Below, in pieces: positions 3,031 to 16,618 of a DNA stretch of 46,557 nt. The notes below the pieces were generated by a model. That model worked only from the letters and a program-made list of their open reading frames with translations, searched no databases and was not told where the DNA came from. The stretch is taken from assembly GCA_002839355.1 (NCBI GenBank), contig PGXW01000031.1, positions 1 through 46,557 of the forward strand, in the 5' to 3' direction. This DNA is from Spirochaetae bacterium HGW-Spirochaetae-2. Lineage in GTDB: Bacteria > Spirochaetota > Spirochaetia > Sphaerochaetales > Sphaerochaetaceae. The translations under genes were made by a program, and so were the position numbers. How positions within the stretch are numbered: the first letter of the stretch is position 1; every line of letters starts with the position of its first letter.

Positions 3031-3174
3031 TCAGTAATTTTGCTTTCAGCCAAATATCAACATATGTGATTATGGAGACTGGGCTGTTTGGTTGTAAATG
3101 AACAATCAATAGCGATATGTCGTTTCAATCCAATGGATTTTTCCAAATGGCTCAACGTTTTTAACTTGTTCCTT

Positions 3175-3449
3175 AGTATAAATTTATTTCGACTATAAAT
3201 CATCAATGACAACTTGCCCTTGATACAAGATTACCCTATGCAAGTGTTTGTTTTGTAAACACTTATTTTTCTGGAATTTTACCAGTTTTTCATCATTTTT
3301 TGATATTTTAGACTACTCAATTTCGTCAATTTTTATCCCAGGTACGCACACTCGTATTTTCAACAATACCGTTGATTCTTATGCCATTTAGTTTTGGGGT
3401 TCGGGGGTTTTCTTTGCCTTGGTCACAGCCTTCCTGGAGCTGTAGTAGG
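3175..3449. repeat. Direct repeat copy 2 (recombinase 3' end relic)
   Basis: Second copy of the 117-390 repeat, same orientation. It retains the inverted repeat AAGTGTTT/AAACACTT, the downstream AT-rich DNA and the recombinase terminal codons. Identity ends near 3449, after which no recombinase coding sequence can be followed. Confidence 0.8.
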
Positions 3450-3518: not shown

Positions 3519-4349
3519 CTAAATATCACCTTTAGCGATGTTAACTAAATCATGCCACGTCAAAGTTTCGAGATCCTCACTATTAAATGAGTAATAAGTA
3601 GCCAATATATTACTTACAATACGTTTTCTATCGTCAAAACCACCTGCCAAGTAATTTTCTCTAATCCTTTTATGTTCCTTCAATTTTAGTACCACTGCCT
3701 CATATGAATATACAGCTGAGAGATTTTCAATAATTTTCATATCAATTGATCCGATAAATTCATGGCTTATCTTTGTTAGAGTTGCTACATCTTTAAATGT
3801 TGGGGGACTTCCCCCTAAATAGTCAGCAAGAAGTTTATGAATGTCTAGTCCAGCATATTTATCATGAATCAATTCTTCGTTACCTGTTAAGCATTCATAA
3901 TGTTCCTTCTTTATTTCATTTTCTGAAAAAAAATGAAGCATGTTATTCCTGTAACAAATCAACAAATCAATGAAAGCTTTCTGGAGTCGGTCGGTTCGAA
4001 AGTATTCTGCAACACCCATTGCCTTTTTAAAAACTGATTGTCCTGCACCATCGAATATTTCTTGGAATTTTACATTTTCTATGTATTTAGGTTTTCTGTT
4101 TAGCTCTGTGAAATATAGGTCAAGCCCATCAACAGCAAAAGCTAGATAAGATTTTAAGATAAATTGTCGGGACCTACTTATTGAATTTTCCAAATTCTCA
4201 GGGTTCCACGTGGTTGAAAAATCTTCAGGACATTTAATGTTCTTATCCGTTAATCTCAAATTATAAAGAGCAATTAATGAAGTTATCAAAAAATGATTTG
4301 ATTGTCCAAAATTCTTTTTAAATTTTTTACGTGCAGCTGTTGTCTTCAT
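3519..4349 (-). CDS. Hypothetical protein with HEPN-type RNNMLH motif
   Basis: A 276-residue, lysine- and asparagine-rich protein I cannot name. Residues 134-139 read RNNMLH, which fits the R-x4-6-H signature of HEPN ribonucleases (polar residue after the arginine). A helical segment around 62-85 precedes it, as in HEPN folds. There is no obvious membrane segment. HEPN proteins commonly act as RNA-cutting toxins in abortive infection and anticodon-nuclease systems. The ATG at 4349 has no Shine-Dalgarno. Instead a tRNA-shaped RNA ends 6 nt upstream, so the two are probably co-transcribed and the message may be leaderless after processing. Very AT-rich relative to the prophage. The HEPN assignment is motif-based inference. 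Confidence 0.5.
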   Translation of the reverse strand: MKTTAARKKFKKNFGQSNHFLITSLIALYNLRLTDKNIKCPEDFSTTWNPENLENSISRSRQFILKSYLAFAVDGLDLYFTELNRKPKYIENVKFQEIFDGAGQSVFKKAMGVAEYFRTDRLQKAFIDLLICYRNNMLHFFSENEIKKEHYECLTGNEELIHDKYAGLDIHKLLADYLGGSPPTFKDVATLTKISHEFIGSIDMKIIENLSAVYSYEAVVLKLKEHKRIRENYLAGGFDDRKRIVSNILATYYSFNSEDLETLTWHDLVNIAKGDI

Positions 4350-4355
4350 AAATAT

Positions 4356-4450
4356 TGCAACATATAGGACTCGAACCTACATCTCTCCCTTTTAAGGATG
4401 CACAAACACACCAGTGAAGGGGAACGGCTTTCCAGTTAGTCTAATGTTAC
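4356..4450 (-). tRNA. tRNA-shaped RNA gene with expanded anticodon loop
   Basis: On the minus strand GTAACAT pairs with ATGTTGC as a 7-bp acceptor stem with discriminator A. The T arm is GTAGG-TTCGAGT-CCTAT. U8, A14, A15, G18, G19, A21 and Y48 are all in place. The D stem GACT/AGCC has one mismatch. For the middle, TTCCC (RNA nt 27-31) pairs with GGGAG (62-66), leaving a 30-nt anticodon loop and a 4-nt variable loop. Alternatively a 7-nt loop CTTCACT (anticodon UCA) with a long variable arm is possible, but its stem has two mismatches. No encoded CCA. It is 95 nt long. It could be a degenerate tRNA, a tRNA mimic or an antitoxin RNA for the HEPN-like gene just downstream. Confidence 0.55.
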
Positions 4451-4456
4451 GGACTA

Positions 4457-4485
4457 AGTATAATCTACAATATTCCAGAAAACAA
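4457..4485 (-). promoter_or_regulatory. Sigma-70 promoter of the tRNA-shaped RNA
   Basis: Reading leftward, TTGTTT (4485-4480) and TATACT (4462-4457) are separated by exactly 17 bp. Six bases later comes the first nucleotide of the acceptor stem, so the expected +1 is at or next to RNA nt 1. This promoter would drive both the RNA and the HEPN-like ORF. Confidence 0.65.
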
Positions 4486-4614
4486 TAATTAGAGTTTTGA
4501 CATTTGGCTATTAGAATATTTATGCTGTGCTTGCTCAAATAGTCATGATTTGTCTTCTATTAATAAATCAAAAAAATACCTCACTTTAATTTCATATATG
4601 ACAATATTTTTTCT

Positions 4615-5595: not shown

Positions 5596-7158
5596 ATGCA
5601 ACGAATTGTGAAAGGAATCCGACTTTTTAACTATTGTCGTTTTATGGACTTCTCAACAGATTTTAATGATAGGCTAAATATATTGATTGGAGATAATGAA
5701 TCGGGTAAAAGTAGTATTTTATCTGCAATTGATATTGTATTGAGTGGAAGTCGTAGTAAGGTTGAGGCACTTGGTTTAGATAAACTATTTAATACTGATA
5801 TTATTAAGAATTATTTAAAGTCTGCAAAAAGGTACGATGACCTGCCTGAACTTTTTATTGAAGTCTTTTTAAATGATTTCAATGAAAAGGAACTAGAAGG
5901 GAAAAGTCATCCTTCTGGCCAGTATTGTCATGGGTTATATTTATTATGCCAACCTAGAGATGATCTAAGTAAAGAAATAAAAGACATTCTTGATAAAGGT
6001 GAGGATAACTTTCCTTTTGAATATTATTCAATAACCTTCAAAACATTTGCAGACCAAAGCTATACCGGGTATAGCCGGTTCCTCCGTCATCTACTAATTG
6101 ATAATTCAAAAATTAGCAATGATTATGCAACAAAGACCTATATTAGTACTGTGTACCAGGCTTTTGCTGACGGCGCTGAGAGAAACAAACATCTTTATGA
6201 GTATAGAAGCTATAAGGAGAAATATTCTAAAACTGAACTTGCAAATATTAATAGTAGGATTCAAGATTACAAATTTGCTGTTAAGTCAAATTCCAAAAAC
6301 AACCTTGAAACTGATCTGACTATTACTGAAGAGGGCATTGATATTGAGAATAAAGGGATGGGGCGTCAATGTTTCATCAGAACAGAGTTTGCTTTGCAGA
6401 AAAATGGTAACGAATTAGACGTCATACTTTTAGAAGAGCCAGAAAACCACTTAAGTCATACAAATATGTACAGATTGATTCAAAAGATAAAAGATACCGA
6501 CTCTCGTCAAGTTTTTCTTTCTACACATAGCAATCTTATTAGTGCTAGATTAGATTTGAGAAAATCTATCTTCTTGAATAGCAGTTCTTGCGATCCTCTG
6601 CAGCTAAATAAATTAGAAGAGAATACTGCAAAATTTTTTATGAAGGCTTCAGATAACAATATTTTAGAATACATTATGTCTAATAAAGTATTATTAGTAG
6701 AAGGTGATGCTGAATATATATTAATGAGTCAATTTTATTATAACTCAACATCAGAAGAGATTGAGAAAAGTGGTATTCATATAATATCTGTTAGGGGGAC
6801 AAGTTTTAAACGATATTTGGATGTCGCAAAAATTTTAAAAATTAAAACAGCCATAATCCGTGATAATGATGGAAACTATAAAAACAATATCACTGAGTCA
6901 TATAAGAATTATATATCAGACATAATCCAGGTTTTCTCTGATGAAAATGATGATATAAAGACTTTTGAAATTGCTGTATTTAATGAAAACCGAAATATCT
7001 GTAATGAGTTGTTTGCTCCTGGTCGAAAAACTTTGTCAGTCTTAGATTATATGTTATCAGAAAAAGCTCAATGTGCATTTGAATTGCTGGATAAGAAAGG
7101 AGAGGAACTTTCCGTCCCTAAATATATAATAAAGGCAATAAATTGGATAAGAAAATAA
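5596..7158 (+). CDS. gajA: OLD-family ATPase/TOPRIM nuclease (GajA-like)
   Basis: A 520-residue class 2 OLD-type protein. Walker A is GDNESGKSS (32-40), the ABC signature-like NKGMGRQ is near 252-258, Walker B is DVILLEEPENH (275-285), and the switch histidine is in LSTHSN. The C-terminal TOPRIM nuclease begins with LLVEGDAE (366-373) and continues with RDNDGN (422-427), supplying the acidic metal ligands. Class 2 OLD proteins lie in tandem with a UvrD-like helicase, as here; the Gabija anti-phage system is that arrangement. The ATPase senses nucleotide state and licenses DNA cleavage. It is slightly shorter than typical GajA. Its 3' end overlaps the helicase gene by 16 nt, implying translational coupling. 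Confidence 0.82.
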   Translation: MQRIVKGIRLFNYCRFMDFSTDFNDRLNILIGDNESGKSSILSAIDIVLSGSRSKVEALGLDKLFNTDIIKNYLKSAKRYDDLPELFIEVFLNDFNEKELEGKSHPSGQYCHGLYLLCQPRDDLSKEIKDILDKGEDNFPFEYYSITFKTFADQSYTGYSRFLRHLLIDNSKISNDYATKTYISTVYQAFADGAERNKHLYEYRSYKEKYSKTELANINSRIQDYKFAVKSNSKNNLETDLTITEEGIDIENKGMGRQCFIRTEFALQKNGNELDVILLEEPENHLSHTNMYRLIQKIKDTDSRQVFLSTHSNLISARLDLRKSIFLNSSSCDPLQLNKLEENTAKFFMKASDNNILEYIMSNKVLLVEGDAEYILMSQFYYNSTSEEIEKSGIHIISVRGTSFKRYLDVAKILKIKTAIIRDNDGNYKNNITESYKNYISDIIQVFSDENDDIKTFEIAVFNENRNICNELFAPGRKTLSVLDYMLSEKAQCAFELLDKKGEELSVPKYIIKAINWIRK

Positions 7159-8165
7159 TTTTTGCTGTTGCAGGTTCAGGGAAGACTACATATATTGTTG
7201 AATCAATAAATGAAGAAGATCGTTTCCTCGTTATAACTTACACTGTAAATAATTTAAGAAATATTTCAGCTTCTATTAAGAGGAAATTTGGATACTTCCC
7301 GCAAAATATAGAAATCTATACATATTTTAAATTTCTTTATTCATTTTGTTTCGCACCATTTCTTGCATATGAGTTAGATGCAAGAGGCTTATTCCTAGAT
7401 TTCCCACCACGGAATACATTAAAATTTAGACGAACAGACCCTAGGTATTATCAAACAACTGACGGGAAATTGTTTAAGAATCGGTTGGCAAAACTTCTTG
7501 AGGTTAAGGATGTAATACCTGAAATCATTAAACGTTTAGAAAAATACTATGATTATCTTTACATTGATGAGGTGCAGGACTTTGGGGGTCATGATTTTAA
7601 TTTCCTAGAATCAATTCTCCAAACATCAGTTGGAGTGTTAATGGTAGGTGACTTTTATCAACATACCTTTGATACCAGTAGAGATGCCAAAATTAATGAG
7701 GGGCTCCATGATGATTATATTTCATATATATCTAGGTTTCAAAAGATTGGGATACAGTTCGATACAACGACATTAAGTAATAGCTATAGATGTAGCCCTC
7801 AGATATGTAATTTTATTACTTCAAACCTTGGAATTAAAATAGAATCTCATCGGACAGATCAAACTCATGTGTATGAAATCTCGGATTATGACAATGCTAA
7901 AAAGATATTTAGTGACAATTCAATAATTAAGTTGTTCTATCAGAGAAGTGATAAGTACCTAGGCTTTACCAGAAATTGGGGAGATTGTAAAGGCGAAGAT
8001 TGCTATGAAGATGTTTGCGTTCTATTAAATGCAACGACATATTCACTTTATCAAAAAAGGGAATTATATAAATCAGCTCCTTTGACAAGAAATAAGCTCT
8101 ATGTCGCATTTTCCCGAACTAGAAACAATCTCTATATACTTCCAGAAACCTTGATAAGCAAATAG
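7143..8165 (+). CDS. gajB: Compact UvrD-like SF1 helicase (GajB-like)
   Basis: A 340-residue superfamily 1 helicase with a nearly complete motif set: Walker A AVAGSGKTT (8-16), motif II DEVQD (142-146), motif III VGDFYQHTF, motif IV-like LSNSYRC, and motif VI YVAFSRTRNNLYI near the end. UvrD/Rep proteins are 650-750 residues and GajB about 490, so this is a minimal version lacking most 1B/2B insertions. It starts with TTG at 7143 inside the last codons of the nuclease gene. The pairing indicates a two-component defence complex in which the helicase binds damaged or terminal DNA and activates the nuclease. That mechanism is known for Gabija and inferred here. Confidence 0.8.
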   Translation: MDKKIIFAVAGSGKTTYIVESINEEDRFLVITYTVNNLRNISASIKRKFGYFPQNIEIYTYFKFLYSFCFAPFLAYELDARGLFLDFPPRNTLKFRRTDPRYYQTTDGKLFKNRLAKLLEVKDVIPEIIKRLEKYYDYLYIDEVQDFGGHDFNFLESILQTSVGVLMVGDFYQHTFDTSRDAKINEGLHDDYISYISRFQKIGIQFDTTTLSNSYRCSPQICNFITSNLGIKIESHRTDQTHVYEISDYDNAKKIFSDNSIIKLFYQRSDKYLGFTRNWGDCKGEDCYEDVCVLLNATTYSLYQKRELYKSAPLTRNKLYVAFSRTRNNLYILPETLISK

Positions 8166-8205
8166 TTTATTGTTTGGCGCCAGGAACAGGAAAGCATGAG
8201 CTTCA

Positions 8206-9693
8206 TTAATTATCATAATCAGACAAGAATAAAGGAATAGCAACTTCAACGTTTTTATGGAGTTTCTTTTCTTCCACATGAACTGATAATGATAGATAGA
8301 TCACGGCTTCTCTTATATATCGCAAGAGTCTAAAAGTCTTTTCTGAAAGTTCGAATTCTGTCACCGAAAAAGCTAGAGTATCATTGCATAAATCTCCTTC
8401 AGTTTCATCTAGTTTAAACCAATGTATTTTGCAATACTTATGTTCAAGATTATTCCTTAAATCGTAAATTCTTTTTGCATCAGGATCTGCAACCTCAAGA
8501 TACTCCATATCTTTTCCATCATTTGAAAACAAATCTTTACTTAAGAAATACAACCCTCTTAATGGATTATTGTTCAATCCCTCTATGTTAGGATCAATTT
8601 GATTATTTCTATACCAAACATTTTTAAAGTAAACTTTATTCTTATCCTTCCCTAATCTTAAATATTCATTTAGGAAGTATCCAATTTTGTCAAACAAGGA
8701 GTATAGCATCTTAAATGAGTTTTTTAACTGCTCATATCTAAATCCATACTGGGGATAATCAAATGTATCAACTAGGCATCTGCCTTTATCCGAGAAATGA
8801 ATGCCTTCCCCAGATAATTCATGTTCATAGCAATAGAATAAATACCTAGCAGTCAAATACTCTTGTTTTATTTGATTATAAAACCCTTGGAAAACAGGTG
8901 CTGAAAAATCTCGTACAAGCATACTCGGGAGTGAAGTAACATCATGAGCAATCGCTGTATCAAAGAATAAATCATTTAGAGGGTTAAGGAATAAACCGTT
9001 GTCAAGAACCCATTTTTTATAAGATTTTTCCTGATCAGTCTTCCCTAATGAGTACTTCTTAAACTCATTCCTTTTTGATAAAAAACTTTCCCCAAGTTTT
9101 TTCTTAATGGCTTCTACACCTGAATCGAATACTGTTTGTGCTTCTTTAGGAATATTGGGCTGACTTGAATAGGTTCGAAGTAATCTATACGCATGTCGCA
9201 AAACTAATGCTTCATGATTTGTATCATATAGATAACTAGCATAATAAATTAATCCATGGCCATAATTACATCCAGCCATCCCAAATGTTGGCTCAATCTC
9301 CAATGCATTTTTCCAACACTCGATAGCATAAATAATTCGTCCTGATACAGAAAACATGTTTCCGAGATTTGTATATGCCTGAAGAAAAATATTTTTTCTA
9401 ATATGATCGGAAATATTGTTTGTTGAAACACATCTTCTAAATGATTTTATTGCATTGATATGTTCATTACGATTATAAGCCCATAAACCTTGCGATGTTG
9501 AGGAACGTATCTTATCCAAATCTGCCCAAGCATTACCGATATAATATTCAAGAACAGCAAGGTCATCCGGTGTATTGCAATTATCTCTAATTGATTCTGC
9601 ACTACTTATGCAATCATAAAGTGCTTTTTCATTTTTCTCCTCGTAAGATTTATCTATTAGCTTACCAATTTGAATAATATCTCCATTTATCAA
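8206..9693 (-). CDS. TPR protein with LA2681-type HEPN domain
   Basis: A 495-residue protein. The N-terminal half holds TPR-like helical pairs, for example around residues 107-140 (AYTNLGNMFSVSGRIIYAI...WKNALEIEP, split). The C-terminal half (about 270-480) resembles the LA2681-like HEPN family, with the catalytic-type motif RNNLEH at R413-H418. HEPN proteins of this sort are predicted RNases in defence islands, with the TPR part likely sensing or scaffolding. It is convergent with the Gabija-like pair (40-bp gap) and codirectional with the restriction genes to its right. The exact trigger and target are unknown. Confidence 0.72.
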   Translation of the reverse strand: MINGDIIQIGKLIDKSYEEKNEKALYDCISSAESIRDNCNTPDDLAVLEYYIGNAWADLDKIRSSTSQGLWAYNRNEHINAIKSFRRCVSTNNISDHIRKNIFLQAYTNLGNMFSVSGRIIYAIECWKNALEIEPTFGMAGCNYGHGLIYYASYLYDTNHEALVLRHAYRLLRTYSSQPNIPKEAQTVFDSGVEAIKKKLGESFLSKRNEFKKYSLGKTDQEKSYKKWVLDNGLFLNPLNDLFFDTAIAHDVTSLPSMLVRDFSAPVFQGFYNQIKQEYLTARYLFYCYEHELSGEGIHFSDKGRCLVDTFDYPQYGFRYEQLKNSFKMLYSLFDKIGYFLNEYLRLGKDKNKVYFKNVWYRNNQIDPNIEGLNNNPLRGLYFLSKDLFSNDGKDMEYLEVADPDAKRIYDLRNNLEHKYCKIHWFKLDETEGDLCNDTLAFSVTEFELSEKTFRLLRYIREAVIYLSLSVHVEEKKLHKNVEVAIPLFLSDYDN

Positions 9694-9838
9694 TCGCGCA
9701 CCCCTTGTTGTGAGTTAGCTTTGCATCAAAATCTATTCATCATAAATCTCCATACTGAAAAATAATACATATTTAAACTTCAGAAATGATGTATTGAACT
9801 CTTTCAAGTTAAGCCTCATCTTTCACTCTTCGCGCATC

Positions 9839-12490
9839 TTATAACTCCCTAAATTGTCTTGCCAATTGTATAAATGAGGAATTAGGCAGGACTTGTTTGG
9901 AGGGAATAAACAGGTATTGCCATTCCTTGTAGTTATTGGCATTTCCCCACCGAGAAGCTACTTCACAATACTGGATTCCTCGTTTCTTCTTTGCTATAAC
10001 ATCAGGATCATTCAATCGATCCTCACCTTTCACCTCTACAAGATATATAACATCTTTGGTCTCAACCACGAAGTCTGGTTCATAGATGTGACCATGATTA
10101 TACGTGATGTTGAACTCTTGTGGCATCGGGCGTAGCCAATTTATAACATCGCTGTCAACCTCGAGGATTCTTCCGAGTACCAATTCAGGATGGCTATCAA
10201 ACTTAGCAGTATCAAAAACACCTTTCTTTATTCCTTCAAAGAGAACGGATTGGATTTTCTCTGAATAACTTTCATCAAATAAATTGCTGCGTTCTTTATA
10301 GTTGTAGGTTTGTTGAAGATTGTAGTTCCGAGTTCCAACAACCTCTTCCTGGAAAAAACCATTTTCACAGTAGAAGTGTTGCATCATTTGATCATATATT
10401 TTTTTTGCAATGTCTCGCTTGAACATCATGACGATATTCTTCATTCCGTTCATTCCAAACTTATTCTCATAATGGCTACAAAGCTGGGATATTAGCTTAA
10501 AAAGCAGCGCGGCGCATTTCTCGTAATCAATTTCAGGTTTCTTTCTAAGCTCTTCAAGAATGACCTTCTGTGGGTTATAACCTTCAAAATCAATGGTATC
10601 ACCTTTGATGCGTTGCCTGTCATGCATATCTTCAAGATTTTGAATAATCATCTCATTCTTGATTGGTGCATGCGTAAACTCAGAAAGGTCTAGATTAAAG
10701 TCAATAAAAACATACTCTTCAACCCCAGCATCAGTAATTTTTATCCTTGGTATGGGGATGAACTTCGACTGGGCAGCACGATGCGTTCTTTCCGTATGCT
10801 CTTGTAGCCATAGGTCAAAAGGCATCTCGTTTTCTTTGTAGATATCAGCCAGGTCTTTATCCTGTGATAGTTGATTCTTAACATTTTCAATGATCTGTTC
10901 TTTCTGGTCTAAGGTGATGTTATGTGTTGGTGTATCTTGGATGATTTTAACAACTTCTTCACTAACAAGTTCTTCCGCCTTACGGAACATAGCGTCAGCA
11001 GTCTCGGATTTTTCAATATTTGTTTGGCTGTATGCTGTCTCTAACATTTCGTCCGATTCATTTTCCAACGTCAACTGAGTAACTGAGATTTTTTCCGGTA
11101 CGATTTCTTCAGCTTTAATGATGTTCCCAGCCTTGAATATTGAATCTCCTTTCTGTGCCTCTCTCAGGAGCTCCTGGAATTTGTCGTGCGCGGTGAGCAT
11201 GACTGCATCAACTTCCTTATCACCGGTACGCTCACCATACGGTAAACGTAAACCACGCCCCACCATTTGCTCACGTAAAATCTTTGAAGCAGCGGTTCGT
11301 AATGGAACGATAGTATACAGATTGTTCACATCCCATCCTTCCTTGAGCATGTTCACATGTATGACAATCTCAACAGGATTATTAGGGTTCTCTACATCGA
11401 GCAGAAGCCGGGTATTTGTATCACTTTCCGACCCTTTCTGTTTGGAGTGGACAATTATGGTTTTATTGCTGTAAATACCATCATGGAATTCATCTGACTT
11501 CACAAACCTTTCAACCCAAGCTGCATGCTCTGTGTCTTTACAAACGATAAGCATGAATGGTTTGACTTCCGGTCTATTATGATTAGCTGCGTAGACTTTC
11601 AATTTGAGTCTTGCATTCTCGTGGCAGGCAATACCATCGAGAAGCATCAACTTGTCGAGTTGTTCCTCACCAAAATTAAAAAAATCAATATCGGTACGAG
11701 TTACAGCAAATGGGGTGCGTGTATAGCCATCTTCGATAGCCTTGGACAACGGATATTCATATACTATATTCTTGAACGGCACCTGTTTGCTTCCATTTGG
11801 AACGAGTGGAGTGGCAGTTAACTCAATACCAAAGAGTGGATGCAATTCATTAAGTGCCTGAGCTCCTTTCGCTGCCCGATAATGGTGTGATTCATCCATA
11901 ATGAGCACCAAATCATCCAAATTGGAAAGGAATCGATAGAACGAATCTCCTATGGTCTCGCTGACCTTCTTCATATTTGCATCCTCTTTATTGAATTTAT
12001 CAATATTGAAAACAAAAATATGGATATCAGAATCAAATAGCATCAGAGGTTTTTCCTTGTAATCCTCATCGGCAATTATCTGCGGTGGATTACTGAAGCA
12101 ACCAAGTCCATTGAATACATATTTATGGTAACTAGGGTCGATCAAATCCTTTTTCAGTTTCTCATAGATCGTTGTATTCGGCGCAACGACAAAAAAGTTC
12201 TTAATATTGTGTTGCGTATATAAGTAGGCGATAAATGCTCCCATTAGCCGAGTCTTGCCAACGCCGGTAGCCAAAGCAAACGCTAGCGACACAAAGTCTC
12301 GTTCAAAATCTGTGCATATCGGATACAGGGCATGAACAGCCCCGAGAGCTGCCTTCAAATTCATGCCTTTCCGCAATGTTAAGCTTGTGGTGATCTCCTC
12401 AAGTATCTTTAATGATTCTGTTTGTGGCCTACGAAGAGACATCACACCACTAATATAGTCGGTGGTATAGTGAGGATAACGGTTACTCAT
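9839..12490 (-). CDS. res: Type III restriction endonuclease Res subunit
   Basis: ATP-dependent restriction subunit of a type III system. The helicase core begins with Walker A in ATGVGKTRL, has the DEAD-like box DESHH, and a motif VI region near MVGRGLRLPYG. The C-terminal PD-(D/E)XK nuclease is visible as PDFVVETKDVIYLVEVKG. I chose the ATG at 12490 because GGAGGTGG lies about 6 nt upstream and the codon overlaps the mod stop (ATGAGTAA), giving 883 residues. A longer frame to 12517 lacks a ribosome binding site. It works as a complex with Mod: two head-to-head unmethylated sites trigger translocation or diffusion and cleavage. Appears intact. Confidence 0.92.
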   Translation of the reverse strand: MSNRYPHYTTDYISGVMSLRRPQTESLKILEEITTSLTLRKGMNLKAALGAVHALYPICTDFERDFVSLAFALATGVGKTRLMGAFIAYLYTQHNIKNFFVVAPNTTIYEKLKKDLIDPSYHKYVFNGLGCFSNPPQIIADEDYKEKPLMLFDSDIHIFVFNIDKFNKEDANMKKVSETIGDSFYRFLSNLDDLVLIMDESHHYRAAKGAQALNELHPLFGIELTATPLVPNGSKQVPFKNIVYEYPLSKAIEDGYTRTPFAVTRTDIDFFNFGEEQLDKLMLLDGIACHENARLKLKVYAANHNRPEVKPFMLIVCKDTEHAAWVERFVKSDEFHDGIYSNKTIIVHSKQKGSESDTNTRLLLDVENPNNPVEIVIHVNMLKEGWDVNNLYTIVPLRTAASKILREQMVGRGLRLPYGERTGDKEVDAVMLTAHDKFQELLREAQKGDSIFKAGNIIKAEEIVPEKISVTQLTLENESDEMLETAYSQTNIEKSETADAMFRKAEELVSEEVVKIIQDTPTHNITLDQKEQIIENVKNQLSQDKDLADIYKENEMPFDLWLQEHTERTHRAAQSKFIPIPRIKITDAGVEEYVFIDFNLDLSEFTHAPIKNEMIIQNLEDMHDRQRIKGDTIDFEGYNPQKVILEELRKKPEIDYEKCAALLFKLISQLCSHYENKFGMNGMKNIVMMFKRDIAKKIYDQMMQHFYCENGFFQEEVVGTRNYNLQQTYNYKERSNLFDESYSEKIQSVLFEGIKKGVFDTAKFDSHPELVLGRILEVDSDVINWLRPMPQEFNITYNHGHIYEPDFVVETKDVIYLVEVKGEDRLNDPDVIAKKKRGIQYCEVASRWGNANNYKEWQYLFIPSKQVLPNSSFIQLARQFREL

Positions 12491-14072
12491 TGCATTCCAC
12501 CTCCATATCATCCTCATATACAGGAGGATGAATGATATTCAGATTATAATCTGTTCTACCGAATTCACATCGGTCGAGGAGCATTTGCGGTATCTTCTTT
12601 AAAGAAATATGCTTATAAGCGCTTTCTAGCCCTGCATCAAAGGATCGGCAAGCGATTATAAGATACTCATTTTCTTCCATAGTATCTTTAATGGAATCTA
12701 GATAAGTACTGTTCATGTGACGTGTGGTAACAAAGAGAAATGACTTCTCATTGCCCACGGATTGCTTCCAGAACAGGTCGTTATCCGGTTGATATTCAAA
12801 ACCCTCGTGAAGAGCCACCGCCGCGGCCAACATTTCTGCGCTATACTCTGTATTTATCACAGGCTCCCCGAAAGAATCTGTGTTGATGAGGGTGGGTGCG
12901 AGCTCAAAAAATCGGTACCCTCCACCACCTTTCCAAGAGACAGACTTTGTGATCCCCCCCTTATCTTTTCCAGCAACAACTTTATCAAGTCGTACTTTAC
13001 AGTGGGTATATGCATGTTCTCCCATCTCAATCCCAATCCACCGCCTACCCATTTTGTGGGCGACTGCTGCTGTAGTTCCAGAGCCAAGAAAGGAGTCAAG
13101 CACAAGGTCATTTTGATTTGTTGCGATATGAATTATTCGTTGTAATAATCGTTCTGGTTTTGGGGTATCAAAAGCGTTTGCAGCACCAAAAAGAGCGATA
13201 ACTTCTTTCTTTGCTTCTTGATTGTGTCCCACTTCTTTATTCGTCCACCAGGTCCAAGGGACTACTCCTTCACGTTCATATAAATACGTCTTCCTCCTAG
13301 GAATACCCCTTCCATCCTTACCGAACCACATTCTTCCATCTCTTACTTGTTGCAGATACACTTCCTCAACATTTTTCCAACATCGTCCTTCTGGAGGAGT
13401 GTATTCAATACCTGCTGGTGTGACAATTTTGTACATTTGATTCGGTCGAAAACCTTGTGCGGTAAAATCTGAGGAAGTCCAAGGTCCACGGGGGTCCTCA
13501 TCTGGATTTTTAAAATTTTTAATTTGACTATCATTGAGAGGAATTTTATTCCGTACATTTTTAAAAACTTCCCTATTTTTCGCATAGGACAAAACATATT
13601 CATGACCATCACTTATTACAGCACGCATATCTGGAGATGTACGCTTCTGCCAGAGATTAGTAGCCAGGTAGTTATTCCGCCCAAAAACCTCATCACAAAG
13701 AACCTTTAAATATGCTTGTTCATCATCATCAATACTGATCCAAATGCTTCCATCTGTAGCGAGTAATCTCCATAGAATCTGTAACCGTGGCCGCATAAGA
13801 TTAAGCCATTGGCTATGTTCCAGATTATCATCATACTGCTCAAAAGCAGAACCTGTATTATAAGGTGGATCTATATAAATGCATTTGATCTTCCCCGCAA
13901 AATTGATTTCTAGCGCCTTGAGTGCCAACAGATTATCTCCATGGATCAGCATGTTTTCAGTATCAGATTCTGCAAAATTATTTGACATCGTTGCATTCTC
14001 AATTAAAATGCGCGGTTCAACGATTATGGGTTCCGCTTTCCCATACCAAGTCAGTTCCAATTTATTAGCCAT
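12483..14072 (-). CDS. mod: Type III adenine methyltransferase Mod subunit
   Basis: A 529-residue DNA N6-adenine methyltransferase that also supplies the target recognition for Res. The beta-class order is visible: catalytic DPPYNTG at 68-74, then a central target-recognition region, then the SAM-binding FLGSGTT in the C-terminal half. AGGAA lies about 7 nt before the ATG. It overlaps res by 8 nt, so the two subunits are translated together. I see no simple-sequence repeat tract, so phase variation as in some mod genes is not indicated. The recognition sequence cannot be read from the protein. Confidence 0.93.
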   Translation of the reverse strand: MANKLELTWYGKAEPIIVEPRILIENATMSNNFAESDTENMLIHGDNLLALKALEINFAGKIKCIYIDPPYNTGSAFEQYDDNLEHSQWLNLMRPRLQILWRLLATDGSIWISIDDDEQAYLKVLCDEVFGRNNYLATNLWQKRTSPDMRAVISDGHEYVLSYAKNREVFKNVRNKIPLNDSQIKNFKNPDEDPRGPWTSSDFTAQGFRPNQMYKIVTPAGIEYTPPEGRCWKNVEEVYLQQVRDGRMWFGKDGRGIPRRKTYLYEREGVVPWTWWTNKEVGHNQEAKKEVIALFGAANAFDTPKPERLLQRIIHIATNQNDLVLDSFLGSGTTAAVAHKMGRRWIGIEMGEHAYTHCKVRLDKVVAGKDKGGITKSVSWKGGGGYRFFELAPTLINTDSFGEPVINTEYSAEMLAAAVALHEGFEYQPDNDLFWKQSVGNEKSFLFVTTRHMNSTYLDSIKDTMEENEYLIIACRSFDAGLESAYKHISLKKIPQMLLDRCEFGRTDYNLNIIHPPVYEDDMEVECNE

Positions 14073-14185
14073 TATTTATTCCTGTACCCTTACTGCTATT
14101 ATTAAAATTACAATCCTCTAATGGATTAATGATGCCATGGGATGTTGGTGTAGTTTACATCAATACGAAAATAATCAAGCTCACA

Positions 14186-14368
14186 TTACATAATTACAAT
14201 TAACAAAAAGAGGATAAGGATCATCACGACCAAAATTATCCCGAAGGTCTTCCAGCCGCCAGTAATATTATCCTGTTCAGGATTAGATTTTGGTGATTTA
14301 GCTTTAGGCTGTGACCTTGTAGCTTTAACAACTGAACGAGCAAAATGATTAACTAGGAATTTACTCAT
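14186..14368 (-). CDS. Small tail-anchored membrane protein
   Basis: A 60-residue protein with a basic, proline- and lysine-rich N-terminal half and a single strongly hydrophobic C-terminal helix (about 41-59) running to the last residue. AGGAG lies about 8 nt before the ATG (GAGGAGAGGG), which supports translation. It precedes mod by about 110 bp in the same direction. Function unknown; a small membrane effector or accessory factor is conceivable but not shown. Confidence 0.5.
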   Translation of the reverse strand: MSKFLVNHFARSVVKATRSQPKAKSPKSNPEQDNITGGWKTFGIILVVMILILFLLIVIM

Positions 14369-14837
14369 TACCCTCTCCTCTTCATAATGCTAGATTCAAA
14401 TTCTTCTAGAGTTTAATTTATTTCACTACCATTACACCACATTATTTCCAATTTCGTAAGACCTAGCGCAGAATCCTCACAATTAGGTAGCATTTTTGTA
14501 CCTACATGGCCTAAAGGTCCATTTACTTTCCATCGAAATAGGTCCCAATAACTATACAACTAATCAGCAATAACACAATATGGACAAGGGTTCTAAAGAA
14601 AAGGGATTCCAATCTATCGCAAGATCTGTTTAAGTGGAGAATTGAAGGATTCTCAATTACTTCGCTTAGCAAAAATCCTGAATCTGATCCTTGAATATCC
14701 TATGAGGCAGATGTGGGATTAATACTAATGTGAAACAATAGAAAAGCCAGTATTAGGCAAGTCCCTTTCTTTCAATCCAAGTGTCATGCCCTGATATACC
14801 CCCATCTGCGCTCTTGAATCTTAACACATTCAATAAA
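14369..14837. other. Intergenic gap, no gene recognised
   Basis: About 470 bp with no convincing frame or RNA. Composition changes here from AT-rich defence DNA to more balanced phage DNA, so this is a plausible place for an element boundary. I find no matching att repeat within the window. Confidence 0.4.
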
Positions 14838-16235
14838 CTAGAAGGGAATATCATTATCAAATCTAACTTTTTCGTCGTCCTCAGGCAATCCAAGTACCTC
14901 TCTATACGTCTTAAGGAGCTTGTTCTGGAGATACACCGTTGGCTCTCCGCACTGTTCACAGAACCTTGAGTCGGGAAGATTCTCGTGGGATTGGCTATCA
15001 TGCAAATTTCCGTAATCGTCCTCCCATTGAGCAGGTATGCATCTGTTAACCAATGGCAATCCACAAATCCGACAATAGGTGGCATCAGCACTGAATTCTT
15101 CGTTCTGGCACCGTGGGCATTCCTTGACTTTATTTGTTTTCCGATCGTATTTGATCTCGGACTTGTATATCATCGAGAAGTCTCCTTCAGTATATTTTTC
15201 TAAGCTTTGTTTTATCTGTAAATGGTATTCGCTATCTTTGAATGCAGTAGGTTTCCCGCATGCATAGCAATGTTTCGCTTCAGGATGATTGAGATGCGAC
15301 GGATCATGTGTACATGGATTTGTTAACGGAGTACCGCATATCCTGCAGTATCCAGCGTCTTCTGAGAAAATCTCATTTCCACAGACAGGACATGGGGAAA
15401 ATTGTGTGTGAAAATTCACACCAAGATCCCTGTAGCTGAATCCTGAATCATTAATCTTGAACGTAAATTGCTTTCTGCCACACTCGAAGCAATGGGAGGC
15501 CCCCGGTAGCCGTACCCATCCACAATGGGAGCAATACCAGGTTGCAGCATGTTTAATGTGTTTCGTGGATTCCCAATCTATCTTTGAAGTACTGTACTTG
15601 TTGATATCTGCCTGCAGCAACCCAATCCTGGCTTTTGCGGCAGGAGACGAGATGTCGAATGCTTTCTCGATCAAGGATTCCGCACTGAAGCGAGCCTTTA
15701 AGTTCGAGGTAACCGGAGTCTGTTGGATAACTACCCAACCTTCGCTTCCATCAGCAACTTTTGAGATGCCGTGACTATCCAAGAGCCGTTCGGTATGGTA
15801 GGCGGGACAAAGAAGGTTTCTGGCAAAGCAATTCGCTTCGTTCTCTAAGCGCTTATAAAGCTCTTGCCCCACTCCTCCCCTCTCAAGTATGGGTTTGCCA
15901 TATTCTTCATGGTGGCCGAGAAAGATGTGTCCGATCTCGTGTGCAATGGTAAACCGAATACGTTGCTTCTTCTTTTTTTCATTATAGTAGACGATGTATT
16001 TGCCACATCTCTCATCCATAACAGCGGCACCATCCTCTGATCCAAAAAACTTGAAGCAGTTCTTTTGGGATATACCTGATTGCTCCATAAGTTTTCCATA
16101 AGAACAAAACTCAAACAAATTATGGAATTGATGTTGAATAGCATGCAGACTCACCGGAAATCGGTCGATGCCGGAGTCCTCAAGTACGATCAAGGCTTCA
16201 ATTATGGGTTGTTGGTAATCTGGATACAGTCGCAT
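14838..16235 (-). CDS. ImmA/IrrE metallopeptidase with C-terminal zinc ribbons
   Basis: About 465 residues. The N-terminal third is an ImmA/IrrE-type peptidase with the zinc motif in FTIAHEIGHIFLGHH (HExxH plus a downstream His). The remainder holds a series of Cys4 zinc ribbons: CSHCGW...CFECG, CPVCGNE...CRICG, CYACG, CPRCQNE...CRICG and CEQCG. ImmA proteases cleave the partner phage or ICE repressor on induction. The ribbons are an unusual addition and may sense or bind nucleic acid or protein. It starts with the ATG at 16235, overlapping the repressor stop by one base (TGATG), so it is translationally coupled. It likely controls prophage induction. Confidence 0.8.
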   Translation of the reverse strand: MRLYPDYQQPIIEALIVLEDSGIDRFPVSLHAIQHQFHNLFEFCSYGKLMEQSGISQKNCFKFFGSEDGAAVMDERCGKYIVYYNEKKKKQRIRFTIAHEIGHIFLGHHEEYGKPILERGGVGQELYKRLENEANCFARNLLCPAYHTERLLDSHGISKVADGSEGWVVIQQTPVTSNLKARFSAESLIEKAFDISSPAAKARIGLLQADINKYSTSKIDWESTKHIKHAATWYCSHCGWVRLPGASHCFECGRKQFTFKINDSGFSYRDLGVNFHTQFSPCPVCGNEIFSEDAGYCRICGTPLTNPCTHDPSHLNHPEAKHCYACGKPTAFKDSEYHLQIKQSLEKYTEGDFSMIYKSEIKYDRKTNKVKECPRCQNEEFSADATYCRICGLPLVNRCIPAQWEDDYGNLHDSQSHENLPDSRFCEQCGEPTVYLQNKLLKTYREVLGLPEDDEKVRFDNDIPF

Positions 16236-16618
16236 CAAAAGTCATCAGAAGCCTGGGGCTCGATGACTCCATCGCTATCAGCATCCTGGAAGGCTGTAGC
16301 AAAATTGTTTCGTAGGATTTCCATCATCCGCTCCCTATCGTCTTCGGACATGGACTTCGACGCACGCGCAATAATCCTGATATCCTTGTCATCATCAATC
16401 GTCTTGTTCAAACTGAGAAGGTAATTGTAGTCAATGTGCAGCGCCTGCGCAATAGCTTTCAGGGTACTCGGATCAGCCACGATATCTGGATTGTTTTCGA
16501 TTCGTGAGATGGTGGCATGATTGAGGTGTATAGCCCGGGCAAGTTCCCGTTGGGTCATATCAAGCTTTTCACGTTTTTCCTGAATGACTTTTCCCAATGT
16601 GAGTTCGCTTTCGCTCAT
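16235..16618 (-). CDS. XRE-family repressor (phage C1/ImmR-like)
   Basis: A roughly 127-residue protein with an N-terminal XRE helix-turn-helix (about residues 8-62: MTQRELARAIHLNHATISRIE). The C-terminal part has no LexA/CI peptidase domain, consistent with removal by the adjacent ImmA-like protease instead of self-cleavage. GGGG lies 6 nt before the ATG at 16618; a second ATG at 16624 is too close to it. It faces the early phage operon across four dyad operators and is the probable lysogeny repressor. Confidence 0.85.
   Translation of the reverse strand: MSESELTLGKVIQEKREKLDMTQRELARAIHLNHATISRIENNPDIVADPSTLKAIAQALHIDYNYLLSLNKTIDDDKDIRIIARASKSMSEDDRERMMEILRNNFATAFQDADSDGVIEPQASDDF

Follow-up and report, generated by a model that had tools for sequence, protein, structure and literature searches.

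A tRNA-shaped RNA with an enlarged anticodon loop lies directly upstream of a predicted HEPN RNase gene in prophages and on plasmids

Results

Organization of the locus

The DNA analyzed here (the window) is a 46,557-nucleotide stretch from Spirochaetae bacterium HGW-Spirochaetae-2 (contig PGXW01000031.1), and it contains a prophage whose terminase, portal and head genes are found from 37.9 kb onward. A promoter-like element, a tRNA-shaped RNA and the gene for a putative HEPN RNase, hereafter P0001, follow one another on the minus strand at the edge of a defence island (5596-16238). The features of this unit and of the island are as follows.

3519..4349, minus strand: P0001, a 276-aa predicted HEPN RNase (ORF, motif, alignment and predicted model)
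3933..3950, minus strand: Rx4H motif R134-N-N-M-L-H139, whose R, N and H do not vary among the 5 intact homologues aligned
4356..4450, minus strand: tRNA-shaped, non-decoding RNA of 95 nt (ARAGORN, Rfam RF00005, covariation)
4390..4419, minus strand: enlarged anticodon loop, 30 nt against the normal 7, with a weak inner hairpin predicted
4457..4462, minus strand: -10-like hexamer TATACT, 17 nt past the -35-like hexamer and 6 nt ahead of RNA nt 1
4480..4485, minus strand: -35-like hexamer TTGTTT (from the sequence; placement tested)
5596-8165: Gabija GajA/GajB (E 4.9e-105 and 1e-48)
8206-9693: HEPN_LA2681 protein with TPR
9839-14072: type III restriction-modification

The island also holds a Peptidase_M78 zinc-ribbon protein resembling CapP/RmrA. 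A 187-aa ORF with a C-x-C ... C pattern (P0002, 4615-5178, minus strand) lies 5' of the RNA on the same strand and matched no family over a cut-off. A direct repeat of 292 nt (100-391 and 3158-3449, 87% identical) flanks a cassette carrying a serine recombinase, a TetR regulator and an EamA transporter; this cassette may be mobile, since the match of a near-identical copy of the window (L035) ends at 3158.

The initial annotation had reported a tRNA-like RNA 5' of the ORF, and two programs agreed with it: ARAGORN and the Rfam tRNA model RF00005 (40.4 bits; gathering score 29) both found the RNA, which ends 6 nt before the ATG. Its stems comprise 7 bp (acceptor), 4 bp with one mismatch (D), 5 bp (anticodon) and 5 bp (T), its T loop reads TTCGAGT, its discriminator is A, and CCA is not encoded. 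Read by hand, the D loop with its GG, the variable loop and the T loop occupy canonical positions. ARAGORN named the RNA "tRNA-Val (cac)", which is a forced label because the anticodon loop measures 30 nt. At the gathering score, Rfam reported RF00005 only over the whole window, and the abiF RNA motif RF03085 was absent; at E <= 1, region 4300-4500 gave the tRNA and one chance plant-virus element only. On a crude score against 33 host tRNAs, the window RNA was closest to Arg(gcg) and Trp, and the RNA of the prophage paralogue described below was closest to Trp; the margins were small, and imitation of a single, specific host tRNA was not supported.

The RNA and the gene occur together in six independent loci

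The initial annotation had staked the pairing on homologues of P0001 also having an RNA upstream. A tRNA-shaped RNA lies directly 5' of the gene, on the same strand, in 6/6 independent loci, namely the window, a prophage paralogue (L036/L037), a gene on a Sinorhizobium americanum plasmid (L041), two IMG/VR contigs (L043 and L042) and a frameshifted gene of Pseudoalteromonas piscicida (L040). The gap between RNA and start codon is 6 nt in the window, 12 nt in L036 and 18, 17, 8 and 26 nt in the others; in L040, an acceptor stem read by hand two nt outside the match of our RNA model (R1, below) gives a gap of 24 nt. The anticodon loop measures 30 nt in the window, 20 nt in L036 and 26, 26, 29 and 20 nt in the remaining loci. 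The unit keeps its order, strand and spacing in differing surroundings, a plasmid and a 1.3-Mb replicon being two of them.

The paralogue, P0003, is encoded on another contig of the window's genome, in another prophage, where it adjoins phage terminase genes. It has 243 aa, is 27% identical to P0001 over 204 residues and carries the motif RNKIVH; its RNA is a cloverleaf lying 12 nt 5' of the ATG (Rfam 38.9 bits, loop of 20 nt). This pair emerged from tRNA and protein searches of the window's genome that coincided. With 49 tRNA matches in 3.6 Mb, we estimate the chance of a tRNA within 26 nt upstream of a given gene, on the same strand, at about 2 in 10,000. In the protein searches L041 showed 32% identity over 70% of the query, L043 31% and L042 38%, and the RNAs of L041 and L043 score 52.6 and 56.1 bits in Rfam. 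At L042 Rfam found no RNA, and at L040 it found the T arm only, below threshold. R1, built from the four RNAs of the window, L036, L041 and L043, located the L040 and L042 RNAs in place (E 4.4e-6 and 3.2e-4, 82 kb searched). The Rfam tRNA model thus accepts 4/6 RNAs, the other two being too divergent, and ARAGORN accepts 2/6 (the window RNA, and that of L043 as "tRNA-???").

Several further copies were not counted separately. With 98.9-99.75% identity to the window, L034, L035, L038 and L039 were counted with it as one locus, and L037/L044 were counted with the second prophage. Only six independent loci are available, and two of them are related, the Sinorhizobium and L043 proteins being 65% identical. 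L034 (PHAA01000049.1), filed under HGW-Firmicutes-15, shares 8.3 kb with the window at 99.7% identity, which probably means that the prophage is the same and the bin was mis-sorted.

As a control we used PF18735 (HEPN_RiboL-PSP), the nearest Pfam HEPN family. None of the members of the P0001 family exceeded its curated cut-off; 1/5 matched at E <= 1, and P0003 reached 19.6 bits against a cut-off of 28.4. PF18735 matched 11 of the 198 genomes searched in the window's phylum at E <= 0.001, six of them over the cut-off. The 13 resulting rows minus L071, which is P0003 itself, left 12 control loci, some weak or partial (L067, L069). No tRNA was found at these loci by ARAGORN or R1 (0/12), which argues that the upstream tRNA-like RNA is specific to the P0001 family and not general to HEPN genes.

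The RNAs keep a covarying tRNA body

In the alignment of four sequences, 95.2% of cells pair and 15/21 pairs are changed on both sides; 0/500 shuffles reach either value, and with slid partners the maxima are 51.3% and 4 pairs. The six-sequence alignment (A8), which was fitted to the RNA model, has 94.4% of cells paired and 17/21 pairs changed on both sides, against at most 46.6% and 7 pairs in slid versions. Folded without constraint, the RNAs of L041, L043 and L042 adopt the cloverleaf and that of L036 nearly does so, and the window and Pseudoalteromonas RNAs fold otherwise. Folding energies across the RNAs lie 1.6-3.0 sd below shuffles, and that of the window RNA is modestly below them (z -1.72; 11/200 shuffles fold equally well). 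The case for the structure therefore rests on covariation, not on energy. An inner hairpin was predicted in 4/6 anticodon loops; L042 excepted, it was no more stable than in shuffled loops, and we do not retain it as a firm feature.

Canonical D, T and acceptor arms are present in the window, L036, L041 and L043 RNAs and, through R1, in those of L040 and L042, eroded in the latter. All six RNAs lack the 7-nt anticodon loop of a functional tRNA and, because this loop has 20-30 nt, are unable to decode. Prophages often sit at tRNA genes, and in view of the tRNA-Val label of the window RNA one could read it as a working tRNA, for instance a suppressor, or as a tRNA decayed at an integration site, its proximity to the gene being incidental. 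We find this scarcely credible: the loop is enlarged in 6/6 RNAs, the stems are kept by covariation across distant hosts, the same order, strand and spacing recur in different contexts, and the control HEPN loci have no such RNA.

Other traits of the RNAs bear on whether they enter the tRNA pathway. If they were trimmed, given CCA and modified like tRNAs, an intact RNA could restrain the HEPN RNase and act as sensor or bait, detecting tRNA cutting or modification by a phage or a shut-off of tRNA processing. In favor of this, CCA is encoded in L041, L043 and, in the hand register, L040; the window and L036 RNAs have no encoded CCA, as is the case for most tRNAs of the window's genome given in full; and the T loop begins with TTCGA in 5/6 RNAs. 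However, no candidate trigger gene was found, in the R1 register no CCA follows the L040 RNA, the full TTCRANY is present in 4/6 only, and the L042 RNA has no CCA and eroded D and T loops, with a T loop of 6 nt and no G18G19. We consider a sensor or bait quite unlikely.

Promoter and leader

The initial annotation had proposed that a TTGTTT-N17-TATACT promoter places +1 on RNA nt 1. The element exists and ends 6 nt before nt 1. We scored, for each locus, the best -35/-10 pair putting +1 on RNA nt 1, using the hand register for L040. The window element matches 8/12 consensus positions, a score reached by about 5% of sampled window positions; taken alone, it is no better than chance, and a promoter scan requiring 9/12 did not pick it up. 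The placements at L037, L041, L043, L042 and L040 match 10, 9, 8, 9 and 8 of 12 positions, scores reached by 0.2, 0.3, 1, 0.45 and 8.7% of positions, respectively. Combined, the six placements give a Fisher p of ~2e-7, a value that is overstated because the Sinorhizobium and L043 loci are related. The proposed promoter is thus supported by the family and not by itself, because the combined placements are unlikely by chance and that of the window alone is not.

As originally noted, the 6-nt gap between the window RNA and the ATG contains no Shine-Dalgarno-like run; good runs of this kind are found 3' of the RNA in L036 and L043. No terminator-like site was listed on the minus strand between 2500 and 6500, so none separates the window RNA from the gene. 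The tRNA-like element might then be an operator in its own mRNA, bound or cut by the HEPN protein and limiting its synthesis, with no separate antitoxin. tRNA-like operators are known in mRNA leaders, such as that of E. coli thrS, and the distance of 6-26 nt between RNA and start codon in six loci fits such an autoregulatory leader, as do the missing Shine-Dalgarno and terminator-like sequences of the window copy. Against it, a complete tRNA body with encoded CCA (L041, L043, perhaps L040) looks like a processed free RNA, and the L036 and L043 genes have Shine-Dalgarno-like runs of their own past the RNA. On balance, we judge the leader explanation unlikely.

P0001 is predicted to adopt a HEPN-like fold with an Rx4H motif

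The RNNMLH motif (R134-H139) first read in the 276-aa ORF is present in the translation. All five intact proteins share R134, N135 and H139, and also W48, S56, R61, D169, K186 and D203. Profile searches with Pfam, NCBIfam and PHROGs gave P0001 no name, and PADLOC returned weak matches only, DUF3644 to P0001 around the motif (E 0.006) and E1-E2 to one other member (E 0.001). Abi_2 (which we take to be PF07751) was not matched among the families listed for the five members at E <= 1; a very distant kinship is possible. A sequence search of the PDB gave no match, and a search of a viral structure library gave nothing at E <= 0.001.

AlphaFold2, applied to four of the five intact proteins, gave models of P0001 (pLDDT 74.9 and pTM 0.67) and P0003 (pLDDT 86.8 and pTM 0.82). 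With these models Foldseek returned nothing at E <= 0.001, the best E being above 0.1: unrelated helical proteins ranked at the top for P0001, with a HEPN toxin fifth (E 1.5), and YutE and HEPN toxins ranked at the top for P0003 (E 0.14). Structural realignment of the Foldseek candidates with VIA-align placed HEPN toxins in the first seven rows for P0001 (Z 9.3-10.2; 129-149 residues at rmsd 3.5-5.4), the next row having Z 6.9. With P0003, we read the 16 highest rows as HEPN relatives, counting YutE and two Thermus proteins as presumed ones; the best of these rows has Z 11.9 (rmsd 3.3, 127 residues aligned), against Z 6.7 for the best row that is clearly unrelated. Helical bundles call for caution at Z below 13; we nevertheless assign P0001 and P0003, by prediction, to a HEPN-like fold with an Rx4H motif, because the matched family is consistent and the catalytic motif is present. 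The HEPN fold expected by the initial annotation is therefore what structure prediction returned.

Catalytic HEPN domains are marked by Rx4-6H with N, D or H following R, as described in PMC3710099. The polar residue after R in the Rx4H motif of P0001 fits this pattern, and RNase activity is predicted. The same source describes HEPN families that have lost the catalytic motif (PMC3710099), and P0001 could likewise be a HEPN-fold protein devoid of RNase activity, an RNA chaperone or a superinfection switch, with the RNA as its ligand. The invariance of R, N and H in five divergent intact proteins makes this highly unlikely in our view.

Distribution and genomic context of the family

In the collections searched here, the family is rare. 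It was found in 2/101 genomes, that of the window included, in 1/392 genomes of the window's phylum (the window's own) and, as a single real match, among 398 genomes of the phylum of G450 (G450 itself). The other two of the three matches in those 398 genomes (L049 and L050) were rejected, as they adjoin ORFs read as sigma factors. Among plasmids, 2/72,556 records matched; queries with part of L040 and with the proteins of L041 and L042 recovered known loci only. P0001, P0003 and the L041 and L042 proteins found none in 50,697 phage records, and scans of viral contigs yielded five distinct contigs. When R1 was run over 296 genomes from the phylum of the window (E <= 1e-10, strict filters), no additional mimic scored above 60 bits, and the remaining 35 matches had the length of ordinary tRNAs, 71-74 nt. 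At this setting, RNAs with the divergence of the L040 and L042 copies (24-31 bits) would be missed.

Outside the window, the gene next to the unit in Sinorhizobium encodes an ApeA-like HEPN protein. On two different viral contigs, the unit (L042 3886-4861 and L043 3881-4912) has phrog_6367 as its neighbor within the head-tail region. A mobile cargo gene would be expected to show this pattern, and the surroundings of phrog_6367 are a possible cargo hotspot. The prophage holding the second unit (L036, on contig C51 of the window's genome) carries two more tRNA-like RNAs (3695-3798 and 5748-5814; Rfam 39.5 and 40.3 bits), neither accepted by ARAGORN. One, of 67 nt, seems to have no proper anticodon arm; the middle part of the other is oddly long. 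Both could be decayed tRNAs or decoys with which the phage counters tRNA-cutting defences.

Discussion

We propose that the RNA and the gene form a type III-like two-part module, in which a HEPN RNase is restrained by a non-decoding tRNA mimic; for us this is an even call. Conserved pairing, a covarying cloverleaf, a large loop, a predicted HEPN fold with its Rx4H motif, the lack of such an RNA at the control HEPN loci and a mobile, defence-associated context support it. Counted against it are the few loci, the frameshifted L040 gene, the eroded L042 RNA, the missing repeats and terminator, and the Foldseek E values.

Such a module would travel on prophages and plasmids. Its promoter would start the transcript at or beside nt 1 of the tRNA-shaped RNA, and the gene within 6-26 nt of the RNA would supply the HEPN-fold protein with its putative RNase activity. 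Having kept a tRNA body with a 20-30 nt anticodon loop, the RNA would not decode; it most likely binds the RNase as a mimic of its tRNA substrate, and the large loop could alter or block cleavage. Binding would keep the RNase inactive or limit its synthesis. If the RNA were lost during phage infection, the freed enzyme would stop translation, presumably by attacking tRNA, probably at the anticodon arm; tRNA as the target of the RNase rests on analogy. We take the RNA to restrain the RNase because the HEPN toxin AbiF is bound and neutralised by the upstream ncRNA RCd22 in the analogous system outlined in PMC12373285. Substrate imitation is suggested by the tRNA shape of the RNA and by PrrC and RloC, HEPN RNases acting against phages which, according to PMC3710099, cut tRNA anticodon loops.

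Of the two interpretations put forward by the initial annotation, a type III-like RNA antitoxin with its toxin is our best guess, as a prediction, and tRNA sensing is a live rival. A class of immune or addiction modules combining both is also conceivable, though we consider it less likely than not: the tRNA mimic, possibly matured like a tRNA, would serve a HEPN anticodon-arm RNase both as its antitoxin and as its sensor, and the enzyme would be freed when a phage disturbs tRNA supply or processing. The likeness to HEPN Abi proteins with upstream RNAs was also raised from the start; it is apt in view of AbiF/RCd22 (PMC12373285), but the unit is not AbiF, as Abi_2 and the abiF motif were not found. 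Identity as AbiF, HepT/MntA or a classical type III system is excluded by the absence of Abi_2 and RF03085, of RX4HXY and (at the window) an MNT neighbour, and of repeats and terminator together with another fold.

Among the matches listed in a literature search by title and opening of the abstract, in which subscription journals are thinly covered, none paired a HEPN gene with a tRNA-shaped RNA. This suggests that the unit joins the RNA-paired HEPN modules with an apparently undescribed, tRNA-shaped partner. It has been suggested that the Cas13 nuclease descends from AbiD/F HEPN RNases, some of which are paired with RNAs encoded upstream (PMC12373285). If the two-part module is real, it would be a second pairing of a HEPN family with an RNA, in which cells control such enzymes with substrate mimics, and it would explain some odd prophage "tRNA genes" mislabelled or missed by annotation programs. 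The unit is small and would form a single operon.

Comparison with known systems

Several known systems share traits with this unit. YrlA and other Y RNA-like RNAs are tRNA-shaped, non-decoding and bacterial, and their partner is Ro60, with RNA-repair genes. The window RNA resembles them in shape and in not decoding; at E <= 1 it drew only the tRNA model and the chance plant-virus element from Rfam. In type III toxin-antitoxin systems (ToxIN, CptIN, TenpIN), tandem RNA repeats and a terminator precede the gene for a toxin with the ToxN fold. Here, too, an RNA gene lies 5' of a predicted RNase gene, apparently in one transcript, but the RNA is single and tRNA-shaped, with no tandem repeats and no terminator-like site, and the predicted fold is HEPN, not ToxN.

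We know of no RNA partner for HepS of prophage Gifsy-1. Like P0001, HepS is a prophage HEPN protein (PDB 9oij, 9oik; Z 5.9-7.5); unlike it, HepS has a phage tail-tip ligand according to the titles of these entries. For P0001 this Z is no better than that of unrelated helical rows. PrrC and RloC are large NTPase proteins and, to our knowledge, have no RNA partner. Unlike the P0001 family, they are controlled by other domains or by protein partners, as described in PMC3710099.

With HepT/MntA, as presented in PMC7641770, the family shares the Rx4H motif, and HepT/MntA was the best structural match of both models on realignment. Unlike HepT (PMC7641770), the family has no RX4HXY, H139 being followed by F-F in P0001 and H128 by G-S in P0003. 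None of the neighbouring ORFs scanned at the window locus has an MNT nucleotidyltransferase Pfam domain; an RNA partner stands here in place of the nucleotidyltransferase. Finally, like AbiF (AbiFCd/RCd22), P0001 is a prophage-borne HEPN protein with an R-phi-xxx-H motif (PMC12373285), and, as in the AbiF system of that report, a small structured RNA lies directly 5' of the gene with a promoter-like element ahead of it, recognized here by sequence only. It differs from AbiF in that no terminator-like site precedes the gene and in that a tRNA cloverleaf takes the place of the abiF-motif hairpins.
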